Virus record (IMG/VR): IMGVR_UViG_3300012944_000024
Coordinates: 1-64,000 of that record
Direction: 5' to 3' (one strand)
DNA length: 64,000 nt
DNA from: a virus
The notes under the pieces were generated by a model, which ran no database searches, was not told the origin of the DNA, and worked only from the letters and a program-made list of their open reading frames with translations. Positions within the stretch are counted from its first letter, which is position 1; each line of letters begins with the position of its first letter. Positions 148 to 5,989 of the stretch are shown here, piece after piece. A program made the position numbers and the translations under genes.

Positions 148-489
148 TCACTTCGAAGCCTTGGGGATCTCGTGCTTCCACGGGAAAATATCGCAGACCG
201 CCCCGCGCCCCACGACGAACCAGTCCGGTGCGCGCTCGAACTCTTCGATCGTCCCGGTCGCGAGCATCTCGCCAAAACGTCCCGTATCGGCCACCCACCC
301 TCCGTCCTCGAGCACGAAGAAGTCTCGCCCGATCGCCCTGACCACCCCGAGGTCGATCATGGTCACCGTGCGGATGACGATCTTGTCGCCCACCTTGAAG
401 GGCAAGAGCACTTGCGGCTTGTCGGCCCCACCGCACATCCGCTTGATCTCCAGCAGCTGCTTTACCGTCAGTTCATCGATGTTGATCAT
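148..489 (-). CDS. Hypothetical protein, 113 aa
   Basis: I do not recognise the family. The protein has an N-terminal helical stretch (DELTVKQLLEIKRMCGG) followed by a region of short beta strands containing KVGDKIVIRTVTM and VRAIGRDFFVLEDGGW, which suggests a small SH3-like or KOW-like barrel fold (inference). The ATG at 489 is chosen because the frame further upstream is only the antisense of the repeat and the neighbouring gene. There is no clear Shine-Dalgarno sequence; instead a palindrome (506-521) and a GGCATAG heptamer precede the start by about 9 bases. Confidence 0.75.
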   Translation of the reverse strand: MINIDELTVKQLLEIKRMCGGADKPQVLLPFKVGDKIVIRTVTMIDLGVVRAIGRDFFVLEDGGWVADTGRFGEMLATGTIEEFERAPDWFVVGRGAVCDIFPWKHEIPKASK

Positions 490-497
490 GCCCGCCG

Positions 498-764
498 CTA
501 TGCCTGGGAACCCGGGTTCCCAGCAAAAGGGTCGCGATGGATATGACCAAGCGCGAAGCGCGCAACGTGCTCGCGCACCCGACCCGAGTCGCACTTGCGC
601 CGGAGCGGGAAGGCGACCGCCTTGCAGGCCGGGTGCTCGCAGGAGAGCTCAATCACCTGCTCCTCCCACCGCCCCTCCTCGGCGTCGAAGACGCGCGGCT
701 CGTAGCGCCCCACCACGTGCGGAGCCATGTCGGGCCGGTACTCGAGCTTCTTGTCGTTGCTCAT
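498..764 (-). CDS. Hypothetical protein, 88 aa, ending in a palindrome-encoded tail
   Basis: Begins with MSNDKKLEYRPDMAPHVV and carries a cysteine pair (ELSCEHPACKAV) and a third cysteine (RRKCDSGRV) with several histidines, so it may bind a metal; no family recognised. The start ATG overlaps the stop of the upstream gene as ATGA. The last residues (GNPGSQA) are encoded by the dispersed palindrome at 506-521 plus GCA-TAG, so the repeat has probably replaced or extended the original C-terminus. Confidence 0.75.
   Translation of the reverse strand: MSNDKKLEYRPDMAPHVVGRYEPRVFDAEEGRWEEQVIELSCEHPACKAVAFPLRRKCDSGRVREHVARFALGHIHRDPFAGNPGSQA
506..521. repeat. Dispersed palindrome copy 1
   Basis: Perfect GGGAACCCGGGTTCCC, extended to a 20-bp palindrome at 504-523 (CT...AG flanks). 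It forms the last codons of the 498-764 gene and sits about 17 bases upstream of the start at 489. Confidence 0.95.
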
Positions 765-1054
765 AGCGGCGCCTGCCCCCCCATCGCGTCCCAGTGCTTG
801 TGGTGCTCCTCCGCGCACGGGCGGCAGAGCGGGATGGGGCGGTTCGGATCCTCTCCCTGCCCGTCCCAGGGGTAGGCGGTGCGCGAGGGCTCGAGCTGGA
901 TGTCCTGGTCTCGGCACTGGTAGGTCGCGTCGAGCCCCGCGTGGGTCGCGCAGTGCTGGCAGACCCGTTTCGGCGGACCGAGTAGGAGCTCACGGAACCG
1001 CCGGTGCGCGCCCTCGAAGTCGAGCGGCTGGGAAGCGGGGAGGATCAGGCCCAT
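761..1054 (-). CDS. Small zinc-ribbon-like protein, 97 aa
   Basis: Two cysteine/histidine clusters, VCQHCATHAG and LCRPCAEEHHKHW, about 35 residues apart, look like a four-ligand zinc site. This is common in phage HNH-associated or small DNA-binding proteins, but no HNH core is visible. The ATG at 1054 is preferred over a GTG at 1099 because the small coupled ORF 1045-1134 then fits directly upstream with a 10-base overlap. It overlaps the next gene by ATGA. Confidence 0.7.
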   Translation of the reverse strand: MGLILPASQPLDFEGAHRRFRELLLGPPKRVCQHCATHAGLDATYQCRDQDIQLEPSRTAYPWDGQGEDPNRPIPLCRPCAEEHHKHWDAMGGQAPL

Positions 1055-1134
1055 TCGTCCAGCCACCCGTAGAGCACCCAGCAAAAACACGCCACCCACG
1101 TGCCCACCGCGAACATCCCCATCGGGTCATCCAT
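1045..1134 (-). CDS. Predicted 29-aa membrane peptide
   Basis: The stop of the 1134-1526 gene and this start share a base (TGATG). The peptide begins MDDPMGMFAVG and continues with TWVACFCWVLYGWL, one strongly hydrophobic segment rich in Trp and Cys, then ends DEWA. Tight coupling on both sides and the compact transmembrane pattern favour a real gene; function unknown. Confidence 0.5.
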   Translation of the reverse strand: MDDPMGMFAVGTWVACFCWVLYGWLDEWA

Positions 1135-1526
1135 CACGCGGCCCGCTTGCGCGCCCGCTTGCGCGCCCGCTTGCGCGCGTTGCGGGTGCGGCGATCAAGC
1201 TCCTGCTTTCGCATCGCCCCCTCTGCCCTCCACCTCGGCCCGCTCGTGTGAAACGCCAGCCAACTCACACGATACGTCTTGCCCCCATCCTCATCGGCGC
1301 GCTTCTCGATCGCCCAGGTGCGCGAGCGCATCCGCAGCAGCGCGATCGCGTAGAGGAAGTACTGCGGCTCTCGCTCGCCCTTTCGGAAGCGGTAGTCGAC
1401 CGCGCCCGCGGCGTGCAGCTTGGAGCGCGCGATCCAGATCAGCCACCCCGCGGCCCTCGGGCCCTCGATGCGTACGCGCTGGCGCTGCGCCCAGATCCCC
1501 TGCACGTCGAAACTCGGCGGCTTCAT
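1134..1526 (-). CDS. Hypothetical basic protein, 130 aa
   Basis: Unrecognised. The central part (WLIWIARSKLHAAGAVDYRF) looks folded, and the C-terminus is a run of Arg/Lys repeats (ARKRARKRARKRAA) encoded by a 12-bp DNA repeat at about 1141-1178. The basic tail suggests nucleic-acid binding (inference). It overlaps its upstream neighbour by ATGA at 1523-1526 and the membrane peptide downstream by one base. Confidence 0.75.
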   Translation of the reverse strand: MKPPSFDVQGIWAQRQRVRIEGPRAAGWLIWIARSKLHAAGAVDYRFRKGEREPQYFLYAIALLRMRSRTWAIEKRADEDGGKTYRVSWLAFHTSGPRWRAEGAMRKQELDRRTRNARKRARKRARKRAA

Positions 1527-1792
1527 CGCGGCGCCAATGGAGCGGCGCGAAGCTCAAGACGAATCTCGACAATCTGCTTCTCGAGCGCGACCACCTTGCG
1601 CTCCGCCCCCTCGGCCCTCGCGAGCGCGTCGCGCAGGGCGTCGCTGTAAAAGACGACGAGCGAGGTGATCGCATTGTGCCCGGTCGCGGCGCTGTCGCCG
1701 TGCCGAGAACGGAGCCCGACGCCGACCTGCGCCTCGATCGCCTCGATCGCCGCGCGCACCTGCTCGCCACTCGTCGGCTTCTCGTCTCCCAT
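1523..1792 (-). CDS. Hypothetical coiled-coil protein, 89 aa
   Basis: The second half (ALARAEGAERKVVALEKQIV) has heptad-like spacing typical of a short coiled coil. No family recognised. The start ATG at 1792 has no strong ribosome-binding site but follows GGCATAG by ten bases (see findings). It is translationally coupled to the next gene by ATGA. Confidence 0.7.
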   Translation of the reverse strand: MGDEKPTSGEQVRAAIEAIEAQVGVGLRSRHGDSAATGHNAITSLVVFYSDALRDALARAEGAERKVVALEKQIVEIRLELRAAPLAPR

Positions 1793-1801
1793 GCCCGCCC
1801 G

Positions 1802-1981
1802 CTATGCCTTGTTCTTCGCCACCCACTTGCCGATCTTGCTCTTCGGCTTGACCTTCTGGGGCAGGTGCTTCGTCTTGCCGCGCGACGCGTCGTTGAACTC
1901 GTCGACGACGCCCTGCTCGATCTCCCCGCGCGCGGCTGCGGCGTTCATGTAGCGCTGCTGACTTATGCTTTTATAGGGAAT
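1802..1981 (-). CDS. Small phage protein, 59 aa, probable ATT start
   Basis: Reads PYKSISQQRYMNAAAARGEI, then VVDEFNDASRGKTKHLP and a lysine-rich tail. This pattern (KSxxQQRYMxAAAARG...FxxxxRGKKxLP) is a recurrent small phage protein of unknown role. The family normally begins M-P-[FY]-K-S, and here the codon in front of PYKS is ATT at 1981, with GGAGG eight bases upstream inside the end of the preceding gene. The only ATG in frame (1946) would delete the conserved part. The protein ends GCA-TAG. Confidence 0.65.
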   Translation of the reverse strand: MPYKSISQQRYMNAAAARGEIEQGVVDEFNDASRGKTKHLPQKVKPKSKIGKWVAKNKA

Positions 1982-1985
1982 GGGA

Positions 1986-2453
1986 TCACCCTCCTCCCGC
2001 AGGCGGCTTGTCCGTCGGGGTCTCGTGCTGCCGGCCGAGCGCTTGGAGCTGCGAGCGCATCGCCGACCCGAGCAGGCTCTGAAAGAGGCTCTGGGGGATG
2101 CCGGCCGACGCGGCGAACCGCGCGAGCTCCAGGGTGAAGTTGCCAACCCCCTCGACGGCAGCCCGGTAGAACCGCTCCTGCGGGCCCGACAGGCGCATGA
2201 ACTGGTCGGGCGCGGCGTGGAAGGTGTGGCCCTCCTCGAGCTCCACCACGGGGGTGGAGCGGGCATGCTCGTACGCCTCGGCCTTCTCGACCTTCGGCTC
2301 GTAGACGTGCCCCTCGCCGTCGAAGAAGCGCGCCACGCGCCCGACGGTGCCGGATCGGATGTGGATCACCCACGCCTGCTCCTGCACCAGCCCCCTCCAC
2401 CAGTCGATCGGGGTCATGGTCGGTTGCTCGTCGCTCATCGGGGCGGTCCTCAT
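1986..2453 (-). CDS. Hypothetical protein, 155 aa
   Basis: Not recognised. Contains a beta-rich segment (WVIHIRSGTVGRVARFFD) and a helical C-terminal half (ELARFAASAGIPQSLFQSLL). The start ATG overlaps the upstream stop by ATGA at 2450-2453; a second ATG five codons later is possible. Its end carries the GGAGG that would drive the next gene. Confidence 0.75.
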   Translation of the reverse strand: MRTAPMSDEQPTMTPIDWWRGLVQEQAWVIHIRSGTVGRVARFFDGEGHVYEPKVEKAEAYEHARSTPVVELEEGHTFHAAPDQFMRLSGPQERFYRAAVEGVGNFTLELARFAASAGIPQSLFQSLLGSAMRSQLQALGRQHETPTDKPPAGGG

Positions 2454-2857
2454 TCGTCAGGCGGGCGGTTGCGGGCGTGGCCGGCGAGATCGATGGGTGC
2501 GGCCGCAACCACATCCTCAACGAAGTCCTCGGGGTTCGCTAGCTGCTCGCCCAGCGCGGGCCGCCACCGCCAGTCGGGGTCCTCGAGATCGGCAACCAGC
2601 TCGGGCGGCAGGCGCCGCCAGTTCGCGTGCGGATCGCGCGCCGTACTCTCCCACCCCCGCACGTAGCCGGCGCGGTAGCAGGTCTCGGCGAGCCGTGTGC
2701 CAAACTCCAGCACCATCGCGCGCGTCAGCCGGTGGGGGTTGGCGTTGAGGAACTCGATCACCAGGAGGCGAAGGCGCGCGGGTGGGGTGGGCCCTTCGTG
2801 GAACGTCCCGAACGCCTTCTCGAACGCGTCGCGTAGGAAGCGGGCGAACGGGGTCAC
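2450..2857 (-). CDS. Hypothetical protein, 135 aa
   Basis: Begins with GTG at 2857, overlapping the methyltransferase stop as GTGA. The sequence [20 protein letters not shown] starts a helical protein with several conserved-looking Trp residues (DPDWRWRPALGEQL). Its position directly behind a DNA methyltransferase may indicate an accessory role, but no motif supports a specific function. Confidence 0.75.
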   Translation of the reverse strand: MTPFARFLRDAFEKAFGTFHEGPTPPARLRLLVIEFLNANPHRLTRAMVLEFGTRLAETCYRAGYVRGWESTARDPHANWRRLPPELVADLEDPDWRWRPALGEQLANPEDFVEDVVAAAPIDLAGHARNRPPDE

Positions 2858-4845
2858 TTCGAGTGCCGGATGATCTGACCCTTGGCGATCCGCGCCATCG
2901 CCCACGCCGCGTGCTTCGGTACGAGCTCGATCCCCACCACCTCATCCCAGCCCGCTTGCAGCGCACCAATGATTTCACTTCCGGCTCCGGAAAACGGTAC
3001 GAGCAGGCGCCTCGGCTTGCCGTCCGCGCGCGGCGGCGGGAGGAGCATGCGGGCGAAGTAGCGACAGAGGTCGATCGGCTTGAGCGTGCTGTGTCCGTTC
3101 TTCGCGCGCCCTTGGCGCGAACCGTCCCGCATGGCACCAACGCCATGCGGGACGGTCTCGAAATTCTCGAGCCCCCGGTCGCGCTCCTCGCGCGAGACCT
3201 TTGATGTGAAGAAGAATCGGCTCGCACCTCCTCGGTCGCCGCGAGCCGTGTCGGTGCTGTCGACGCCTCCGAACATCCCCCCGGGATAGTCGGGTCGGTG
3301 CCTCCCGCCCCCCGACATCCCCGGCCGGTCCCCACTCTGCAAGTCGAGCAGGCGCACCGGGCAGCCCTCGACGCACTCGTACGCGTCGATCGTCTCCTTC
3401 CCATTGACTCCGTAGCCGGCGTCGGGCGTCCCCACCGGGTACGTCCCACGACCATGCATCCCATCCAGCGCGCCTCGGTTCTTGACCCCGTTGCGCTTGA
3501 CCGCGGTCCCCGTCTTGACCACGCGCTCCCCCACCCTCACGCAATCGGGTGCGTGCGATAGCACCACGTTCGCCGGCCACCTCCCCTTCACCTTCTTGCC
3601 CGCGTAGCCGGTGACGTTCTTGGGAGCGATCGAGGCTGGACTCGAACCATCGTTGCCCGCGGGAGCGTTGAACCGTTCAACGCTCCCGATGCGGCTCGCC
3701 TCGATGTCGAGCCCACCCACCCCATGGGTCACCGCGTTGTCCGCGATCGTCCCGCGATGCGGCTTGCTCACCAGCAGCAGGGGCTCGTAGTCAGGGGCTA
3801 AGTCCGAGCTTGCGACCTCTGATGTAACAAGAGCGACCGCAGAAGACGCGAGGGTGAACTCGAGTCCAGCAGCGGCGACGGCGAACGATGCGACCGCAAG
3901 CGAGGCACTCGGCGTCATGCCACGTCCGCTCGTCGCGACCTCGATGATGAGTTCTGGCGTGATCTTCGACAGTGAGGAGTTCAAGGTTCTCAATGCGGTT
4001 GTCAGACTTGATGCCGTTTCGATGGTGAACGTGCTCTCTCGTCTCAAGATCTCGTTCAAGGTGTCGAGCCATGACGACACGATGCTCAAGCTCGTAGGCA
4101 CCGTCGAATCGGACCGCGACGTAGCCATCACTCCGAACAAATCGTCCGGTGAACTGCACTGTTGCACGGCATCCCATAGAACAGAACCGAGCGGTGCGAG
4201 CGCGTCTCGACTTGACGACGAAAGCCTGTCCGCAATTTTCGCAAGTGAGCTCAATTGGCATGCAACTTCCGTCAGCTTGTGAGCCAACGATACCACGATC
4301 CCCTTCAGATCGAGCGGCTTCTGGACCATCTCGAGTATTTCCCACGCCGGCTTGAGCGCTGTCCCCTGCCCATCCCACCGCCTCGCCTCTTCTGAGATCG
4401 CCGCGCCCTTGTCGGTCATCCCATAGTGAGGACCACCCAACGCGGGACTCTGACTCACCACGGAGGTGGCGCGGTCGCGCCACCTCCCCCGCTTCTTGTC
4501 GAGCTCCTTCGCGATGTCGAGCGACTTGGGCCACCCGCTCGCGTAGAGCCACATGCAGACGTCGCACGGCAAAAAGCCCGCGTCCTCCACGTTGACCGCC
4601 ATCCGATGGAACGTCCGCGTGCCGCCGAAGAAGAACGCGAACGCCCCCGGCCTCAGGACCCGCAGCACCTCGACGAACGCGTTGACGCTCGGGACGTCGT
4701 AGTCCCACTTGACCCCGCCGCTGCCGTGCATGAACTCGAGACCGTAGGGCGGGTCGGCGAACGCCGCGTCGAAGCTCTCCGGCTCCATCTCGCGCAGCAC
4801 CCGGCGCACGTCCCCGACGACGATCTCGTACGGGCGACCGCTCAC
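2854..4845 (-). CDS. DNA adenine/cytosine-N4 methyltransferase interrupted by an HNH gene
   Basis: A beta-class amino-methyltransferase: catalytic [10 protein letters not shown] near residue 35, the TALKPA element, [10 protein letters not shown] in the middle, and the AdoMet-binding FSGAGSE near the C-terminus. It would methylate exocyclic amino groups in phage DNA, probably for protection against host restriction. The GTG start overlaps the ParB-like gene stop (GTGA). About 510 bases are inserted after the TALKPA element and carry an HNH gene in another frame. The methyltransferase frame stays open through the insert, giving 663 codons where roughly 480 are expected. The motif [10 protein letters not shown] before the insert and [10 protein letters not shown] after it look like two versions of the same element. 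Whether an active enzyme is made is uncertain. Confidence 0.85.
3791..4261 (-). CDS. HNH homing-type endonuclease nested in methyltransferase gene
   Basis: A 156-aa protein with an N-terminal zinc site ([10 protein letters not shown]...RFCSMGCRA), an HNH core ([12 protein letters not shown], then [20 protein letters not shown]), and a C-terminal second cysteine cluster (CLACGRIV...[10 protein letters not shown]). The paired zinc sites around an HNH fold are typical of phage mobile endonucleases. Its stop lies exactly where methyltransferase homology resumes, so the gene fills the insertion. Base composition is visibly more AT-rich than the neighbours. The insert is too short for a complete group I intron plus ORF. 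Confidence 0.85.
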
Positions 4846-5510
4846 TTGCGCCGCTTGCCGCCGAGCAGCTCGAGCACCACGTCGCCCGTCCCCCGCTTGC
4901 TCGTGCGCGCCTTCTCCTCGAGCTTCTCCTTCACCGCGTCGCGCGTCTTCTTGTCCTTGAACTCGAGCCGCAGGGTCGCGGTCCCCACGATCGTCTCGGT
5001 CTCCTCGGTGATCCTGGGGGGCTCGGAGAACTTCATGTACCGCGCGTAGTCGTCCTCCTCGAACCCGAGCATCTCCTTCTCCTCGGGCAGCACCGGGGAG
5101 GTGTGGGCGATGTCCTCGAGCATCTCGCCGACGAGCTTCGCGATGAACTCTCCCTCCACGTTGTTGAGGGCGATGTTCAAGATCTTCGCCTCCCGATCGA
5201 TGAGGTCGAGCACCACGCACGGCAGCCGGGGGGTCGCGACGTTGTCCTCGATGCAGATCTCCCGCACCGCCTTGACCCGCTGGTGTCCCCCCACGATCAC
5301 CATCGGACCGTGCGCCTTGCTGAAGCGCTGGATGACGAGGTTCTCGAGAAACCCATTCTTCCGGATCCCCTGCTTGAGCGCGTCGAACTTGTAGGGCGAG
5401 ATCGAACGCGGATTGTACGCGGCAGGTTGCAGCTCTTGCACCGCCATCATCACCACTGATCGAACCTCGAACGGTTGCAGCACCTGCGCGACTGTCTTTG
5501 ATCGGTTCAT
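4842..5510 (-). CDS. ParB-like N-terminal domain protein
   Basis: Residues about 15-85 show the ParB/Srx fold signature: [19 protein letters not shown], then GFLENLVI and [11 protein letters not shown]. The C-terminal part is charged and helical ([17 protein letters not shown]), without the helix-turn-helix of a partition ParB. Such proteins often sit beside phage DNA methyltransferases; here the stop overlaps the methyltransferase GTG. The ATG at 5510 overlaps the stop of the HNH gene as ATGA; an ATG four codons upstream (5522) is an alternative. Whether it binds a site or has nuclease/CTPase activity cannot be told from sequence. Confidence 0.85.
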
Positions 5511-5989
5511 ATGTGCACCCATCGAACCCTCGTAACGATCTTGGAGATCGCCCCTTGTCGCACGCCAAACCGTTCGGCAAGCGTCTTACGTGACTCCCCG
5601 GCCTTAGCAGCAGCGCGGATCTCCAACACCTGTTCGTCGGTCAGCTTGGCGAGATGATGCCCAACCCCTGCCTTGCTATGGCGTCGACCCTTCTTCATCG
5701 AATCGTGGACGTTGTCCTTCTGCGTTCCGACGAAGAGATGTTCGGGGTTCACGCACCGCGGAGTATCGCAAGTGTGCAGGACAAGTAACCCAGCCGGCAC
5801 TGGACCCCTATGCATCCACCACGACACCACGTGCGCGCGATTCGACCTGCTGCGCTTCGTACCCGGGATGAATGCGTAGAAGAAACCGTACCCGTCCTTG
5901 TCCAGACCCCCAGTCCAGAGCCAGCACCCGTCACTCTTCTCTACGTGCGTGAAAAACCGGATCCTCGGTTCGATTGTTCTGGGCGCCAC
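5507..5989 (-). CDS. HNH endonuclease with C-terminal helix-turn-helix
   Basis: A 160-aa protein matching the free-standing HNH family with SDGCWLWTGGLDKDGYG, then RAHVVSWWMHRG, LHTCDTPRCVNPEHLFVGT and KDNVHDSMKKGR. The tail (LTDEQVLEIRAAAKAGESR, ERFGVRQGAISKI) is a DNA-binding helix-turn-helix typical of phage homing nucleases. GTG at 5989 is the likely start, nine bases after GGCATAG; no ATG fits. It stands between the resolvase and ParB-like genes and is coupled to the latter by ATGA, as expected for a mobile gene that integrated at a gene junction. Confidence 0.85.
   Translation of the reverse strand: MAPRTIEPRIRFFTHVEKSDGCWLWTGGLDKDGYGFFYAFIPGTKRSRSNRAHVVSWWMHRGPVPAGLLVLHTCDTPRCVNPEHLFVGTQKDNVHDSMKKGRRHSKAGVGHHLAKLTDEQVLEIRAAAKAGESRKTLAERFGVRQGAISKIVTRVRWVHI

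Follow-up and report, generated by a model that had tools for sequence, protein, structure and literature searches.

Hidden HNH endonuclease genes in mycobacteriophage methylases have been described as the ‘ShiLan domain’ (Arsenault, Gosselin and Gogarten, 2025, PMC11855218), in work that follows an earlier study of ShiLan-type methylases (PMC9957025), and Applejack is another published case (PMC12613952). The 2025 study noted the open host frame, an 11-residue similarity between insert and flank and a patchy distribution, and it detected neither intron or intein signatures nor a ribosome-binding site (PMC11855218). Other systems share features with the locus described here. HNH endonucleases borne by group I introns (I-HmuI type) are likewise presumed to spread by homing to alleles that lack the insert, whereas the present locus is without a ribozyme or splicing signal and its host frame is kept open; inteins are likewise open in-frame insertions into conserved phage-enzyme motifs, but the nuclease here lies in another frame and there is no splicing domain. 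In the mobE/split nrdA type, a free-standing homing gene leaves the host gene as two ORFs; an HNH gene in coding sequence without an intron is common to that type and the present locus, whereas the host gene here stays a single ORF.

The window analysed is a stretch of 64,000 nucleotides (positions 1 to 64,000) of the IMG/VR record IMGVR_UViG_3300012944_000024, an uncultivated virus record of 98,407 bases. Judged by its site, open frame, alternative-frame HNH gene and duplicated 11 residues, the element it carries can be assigned to the ShiLan-type hidden HNH elements. The host gene family, the site after the LKP codons, the alternative frame of the HNH gene, the open host frame, the 11-residue duplication and the position of the HNH stop at the 3′ junction are shared with the ShiLan domain, and the patchy distribution may be as well. 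The differences lie in the carrier, a 98-kb uncultivated virus, in an HNH protein that shares only ~47% identity with its mycobacteriophage counterparts (57% with that of cyanophage Cr-LKS3), in an insert of 185 rather than 202 codons, in an ATG rather than a GTG start for the HNH gene, and in the clear ribosome-binding site of many relatives found here, none having been reported in the published ShiLan work. The same arrangement, annotated as one DNA methylase, is present in mycobacteriophages Pollywog, MISSy, Filuzino, Mantra, ShiLan and others, and in Cr-LKS3. The kind itself is published; new here are the test for selection on the host frame, the division of residues between the motif copies, the candidate ribosome-binding sites and the further sites of insertion.

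The interrupted methyltransferase and its insert

The host gene (Table 1) reads on the minus strand without a stop from the GTG at 4845 down to the stop at 2854, and its GTG start overlaps the stop codon of a ParB-like gene (4842-5522). The protein matched the phrog_67 profile (E 1e-21); its match to Pfam N6_N4_Mtase was weak and fell short of the gathering score (E 1e-3), and its relatives by PDB profile search were CcrM and M.RsrI. With the DPPY and PFSGAGS (FxGxG) motifs intact and the phrog_67 match, it is classified on sequence grounds as a phage N6/N4 DNA methyltransferase. A full-length alignment with 29 nested relatives showed the catalytic motifs of the host enzyme to be conserved on either side of the insert. 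No close relatives of the whole window protein were found in viral contigs using a peptide-pattern search, so the empty site of the window's own gene was not seen. An additional Cys/His stretch at residues 708-793 of the ORF frame was inspected as a possible second insert and hides no nuclease. Just upstream of the ParB-like gene, a further HNH-like coding stretch (RAHVVSWWMHRGPVPAGLLVLHTCDTPRCVNPEHL) lies at 5507-5950 on the minus strand.

In intact relatives LKP-AxEPxxxARKP-xGTVAxN is unbroken, and because these enzymes run from LKP directly into AxEP.....RKP, the extent of the insert could be set as in Table 1; its length is a multiple of three and the methyltransferase frame stays open across it. 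The first-pass annotation, made from the window sequence alone, had described an HNH gene nested in an uninterrupted methyltransferase and had given the insert as 170 residues, with an end at position 4360. The nesting was confirmed by the open 555-nt insert and by the match of the HNH protein to Pfam HNH_3 (E 2e-10, 40.5 bits, cut-off 24.8), whereas the insert proved to be 185 codons long and the last 13 bases of the interval fall outside it. The alignment to intact homologues that had been proposed for fixing the insertion point was carried out and places it after the LKP codons. The HNH ORF begins with the ATG at 4259-4261 and ends with the TGA at 3791-3793, at the 3′ junction of the insert. 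Its product retains the conserved H/N/H residues (EHR...HVHHRNG...DNRIENL), with the core flanked on both sides by zinc-finger-like CxxC pairs; a PDB profile search with the HNH alignment gave no match.

Table 1. Coordinates of features in the window and in other loci (L numbers)
Locus	Feature	Coordinates	Strand or frame	Details
Window	N6/N4-type DNA methyltransferase gene	2854-4845	minus	663 aa including insert; GTG start at 4845
Window	Inserted element	~3793-4347	minus	555 nt = 185 codons, between LKP and (D)YEP codons
Window	HNH_3 homing-type endonuclease ORF	3791-4261	minus	156 aa, +1 relative to host frame
Window	5′ (element-borne) copy of strand motif	4315-4347	minus	conserved Glu kept
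Window	3′ (native) copy of strand motif	3760-3792	minus	point where methyltransferase resumes
Window	Weak Shine-Dalgarno-like GGAAG	4266-4270	minus	4 nt before HNH start; no match in strict test
L016	Vsr/PD-(D/E)XK-like + zinc-finger ORF	~1218-1950	antisense to methylase	between DPPY and FMGKxWD
L032	Vsr/PD-(D/E)XK-like + zinc-finger ORF	~960-1770	antisense to methylase	between DPPY and FMGKxWD
L021	In-frame insert with HNH_3 gene	3567-3989	nuclease out of frame	after CAKASKxER
L257	In-frame insert with HNH_3 gene	3126-3617	nuclease out of frame	after CAKASKxER
L036	In-frame insert with HNH_3 gene	1951-2514	nuclease out of frame	after CAKASKxER
L045	In-frame insert with out-of-frame zinc-finger/HNH-like gene	3333-3866		in ARFF/SRFEYCAKAS; no Pfam HNH match
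L015	In-frame insert with HNH_3 gene	3171-3998	nuclease in other sense frame
L020	In-frame insert with HNH_3 gene	1770-2594	nuclease in other sense frame
L009 (Mycobacterium phage MKC-IRE-02)	HNH_3 gene in recognition region	2451-2881	antisense	methylase frame open
L007 (Omegavirus Schatzie)	C5 cytosine methylase with nested HNH	1743-3266		Pfam DNA_methylase E 8e-50; host frame open
L032	Methylase split at recognition-region site	3150-4200		HNH between ORFs
L049	Methylase split at recognition-region site	3250-4120		HNH between ORFs
L259	Methylase split at recognition-region site	3700-4300		without HNH

Openness of the host frame across relatives

Viral and genome collections were searched with the HNH protein alone, a selection blind to the host frame, and ~58 loci nested in a methyltransferase and spanning 30-67% GC were obtained; two further loci (L068 and L071) were excluded from the nested count, their +1 frame being open with no long ORF past the nuclease. 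Both host parts lie in the same frame across the ShiLan-type insert in all ~58 loci and none has a host-frame stop across the HNH gene, the AT-rich loci included (L086 at 30% GC, L044 at 37% GC and one at 40% GC). In 36 divergent nested representatives (below 75% HNH identity) 0 stops were counted, compared with 51 expected when synonymous codons were shuffled within the gene and 245 expected with codons at local base composition, figures for which no combined probability can be quoted because the nested loci are related and, sharing the same relative frame, are not independent trials. The same shuffle predicted 130.6 stops for 29 free-standing HNH relatives, which are more distant and belong to another clade, and 131 were seen. 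On these counts, the openness of the host frame is beyond chance across the divergent nested relatives. For the window alone, ~6.5 stops were expected at local base composition (P of none ~0.0005) and the within-gene synonymous shuffle gave P 0.82, so this single locus is not decisive. The proposal that one stretch of DNA may encode protein in two frames is well supported, none of the nested relatives having a stop in the host frame.

Third codon positions of the HNH gene, which are second positions of the host frame, diverge most, indicating that the HNH frame is under purifying selection, as judged from this pattern; the nuclease sequence would therefore be conserved, with host-frame residues free to change barring stops. 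In one locus (L052) the HNH frame is broken early, yet the host frame is open. The host-frame insert appears slightly more hydrophobic than its synonymous shuffles (mean z 1.1). An open frame might in principle be selected for reasons unrelated to enzyme function, such as the avoidance of polarity on the downstream half or the HNH gene. Occupancy of the site is low: of 80 relatives recovered with only the N-terminal half as query, ~2-3 carry the ShiLan-type insert.

The duplicated strand motif

The xxE.....KP strand motif of the methyltransferase is present on both sides of the insert, the first 11 insert residues resembling the 11 residues just after it, and the two copies noted in the first-pass annotation are real. 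In the rather narrow sample of 26 distinct strands from intact enzymes, the third residue was Glu and the ninth Arg in 26/26. The 5′ leader copies have the Glu in 38/38 and the Arg in 8/38, and the 3′ copies have the Arg in 31 and the Glu in 23 of ~37 (two or three 3′ strands were misparsed, which leaves the picture unchanged). Read from these counts, the two motif copies have divided the ancestral residues between them, with Glu in the 5′ and Arg in the 3′ copy.

Distances between the 11-residue leaders correlated with HNH distances (r 0.54) and less with those of the two host halves (r 0.22 and 0.18). HNH and host distances disagree across the nested set, and HNH genes 4-9% apart occupy methyltransferases 16-55% apart. 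The suggestion that a single homing event had brought in part of a different allele is too simple, since the duplication belongs to the mobile unit in every nested relative, varies more with the HNH gene than with the host gene and shows the division of residues described above. The simplest reading of the alignments is that the leader belongs to the mobile unit and would supply the strand interrupted by the insertion, with the native copy serving the part that follows. An AlphaFold model of the full window protein places the 3′ copy and not the leader as the strand, but it is too poor (mean pLDDT 55.6) to decide between the copies.

Translation of the endonuclease

A Shine-Dalgarno-like site at the right distance before the HNH start was present in 17/36 representatives, compared with 10% for other start triplets. 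Such a site is often GGAGG, 7 nt upstream, and lies inside host Leu-Glu codons. Many relatives carry a perfect GGAGG at the position of the weak GGAAG of the window, and the ShiLan-like phages, included in this count, have GGAGG 4 nt ahead of the GTG start of the HNH gene; this candidate site runs contrary to the published absence of a ribosome-binding site (PMC11855218).

Alternative explanations and the probable reading

An unrecognised RNA intron would remove the insert from the mRNA and make the duplicated motif a splice-site feature. Homing HNH genes are often carried by group I introns, the 5′ motif copy is similar to the 3′ flank, and the annotators of Omegavirus Schatzie, dealing with a nested HNH in another methylase, were ‘unable to determine intron boundaries’. 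However, splicing would put no constraint on host-frame stops in an intron, and all nested relatives are free of them; only ~85 nt of the window insert lie outside the HNH ORF, no group I or group II intron was matched in Rfam at E<=5 for the window or at E<=1 for 10 loci, and an RNAweasel search of the published ShiLan-type cases found no introns (PMC11855218). Removal as an intron is consequently regarded as improbable. That the element is neither an intron, an intein nor an occupant of a gene gap, as had been put forward, holds as far as it can be tested, with no Rfam match, no intein motif and the HNH gene in another frame.

Similarly improbable is a split enzyme, in which the N-terminal half would end in the leader strand, the C-terminal half would re-initiate after the HNH stop and the two halves would assemble. 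Each half of the methyltransferase does have a complete strand motif, and true fission does occur elsewhere in this methylase family (L032, L049 and L259). Fission requires no open frame across the HNH gene, however, and split cases number 0 of ~58 at the ShiLan site, whereas the ORFs do end at the fission site. For a dead enzyme, whose gene would be merely interrupted and whose open frame would be due to chance in a GC-rich genome, the non-significant shuffle result of the window (P 0.82) can be cited, but the frame is open in AT-rich relatives, the catalytic motifs are conserved on both sides and Glu and Arg are retained in different copies, which leaves this explanation with very little probability. 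Excision of the insert from the protein, through a novel kind of intein-like splicing, would account for the open frame and is extremely unlikely, since the host-frame insert has no Pfam match, no intein motifs and no intein-like block by eye in the alignment, its residues vary freely, its last residue included, and true inteins, which this gene family carries at a different site (L048), are recognisable.

The window probably carries a ShiLan-type homing element that is not spliced and preserves the host frame, the reading to which the open in-frame insertion, the absence of stops, the divided Glu and Arg and the close HNH genes in divergent hosts all point. A short leader and the HNH endonuclease gene would form the mobile unit, which sits directly behind the LKP codons in the gene for a phage N6/N4 methyltransferase; because of that exact position, the presumed target of the endonuclease would be split by the insertion. 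The leader would encode a substitute for the broken strand motif and would therefore complete the N-terminal lobe of the enzyme. The ribosome would then stay in the host frame across the HNH gene, producing a tolerated polypeptide of ~170 residues, and re-enter the enzyme at the native motif. The HNH protein would be made separately by initiation at its internal start codon, in many cases with a Shine-Dalgarno site ahead of it. The HNH protein and the methyltransferase are thus probably both made from the same DNA without splicing. We infer that the full-length methyltransferase chain would be made and active, that the HNH protein would cut the empty site and that homing would move the element.

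Other insertion sites and related loci

Profile comparison identified further large in-frame inserts in the same methylase family, most of them hiding an out-of-frame nuclease (Table 1). The antisense nuclease ORFs of L016 and L032 are 252-265 aa in length, with weak Vsr-like profile support for L032 only and not for L016; at this site the host frame is open even at 39% GC, that is, the hidden ORF is without TTA, CTA and TCA codons. Host-frame stops numbered 0 in all ten additional sites tested, against 2.5-10 expected for each at background, a count that is not unbiased because the sites were mostly found inside open ORFs. Counter-examples are provided by L032 and L049, in which the enzyme is broken into two ORFs by an HNH_2-type gene at yet a different position; the splits in L032, L049 and L259 are apparent gene fissions, as read from their ORFs. 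Two further candidates for second inserts, L120 and L056 (417-537), were rejected, as no nuclease is hidden there.

Several related arrangements were observed alongside these sites. As in Schatzie, a C5 cytosine methylase with a nested HNH and an open host frame is present in L008 and L012 (Constella, KashFlow), and in all three Omegavirus loci (L007, L008 and L012) the downstream half of the C5 methylase is frame-shifted into a separate ORF. One methylase (L048, 1014-3737) contains an intein-like insert (CLDEQTEM...VTGNS) and a hidden HNH insert. In L103, a terminase-like ORF (392-2668, minus strand) with an intein-like start (CVAAGTPVLMADGTW) has an HNH gene antisense inside it, and in L099 an HNH gene (2501-2905) is antisense to a 1771-codon open frame that spans the whole Verrucomicrobiota contig piece. 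An abiF RNA match above the gathering score lies near the nested methylase of L017 (4820-4856).

On balance, a general class appears plausible, in which homing nucleases of unrelated families (HNH_3, other HNH and Vsr-like), on either strand and in different frames, occupy coding sequences, above all those of DNA methyltransferases. They would persist there unspliced, with the host frame kept open by selection, and at the best-studied site the element would supply a replacement for the structural motif that it interrupts.

Implications

The usual view is that a homing gene can occupy coding sequence only within an intron, an intein or a gap between genes. The present comparisons provide strong evidence for another way, in which the host ribosome would read through, the protein would bear the insert as ballast and the element would patch the motif that it broke. 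Many ‘DNA methylases’ in databases carry ~170 residues of frame-shifted nuclease, which is a trap for annotation and for structure prediction. The stop-free host frames, the sharing of residues between motif copies and the candidate internal ribosome-binding sites bear on two questions raised by the 2025 study, namely whether the host enzyme is made and how the nuclease is translated.
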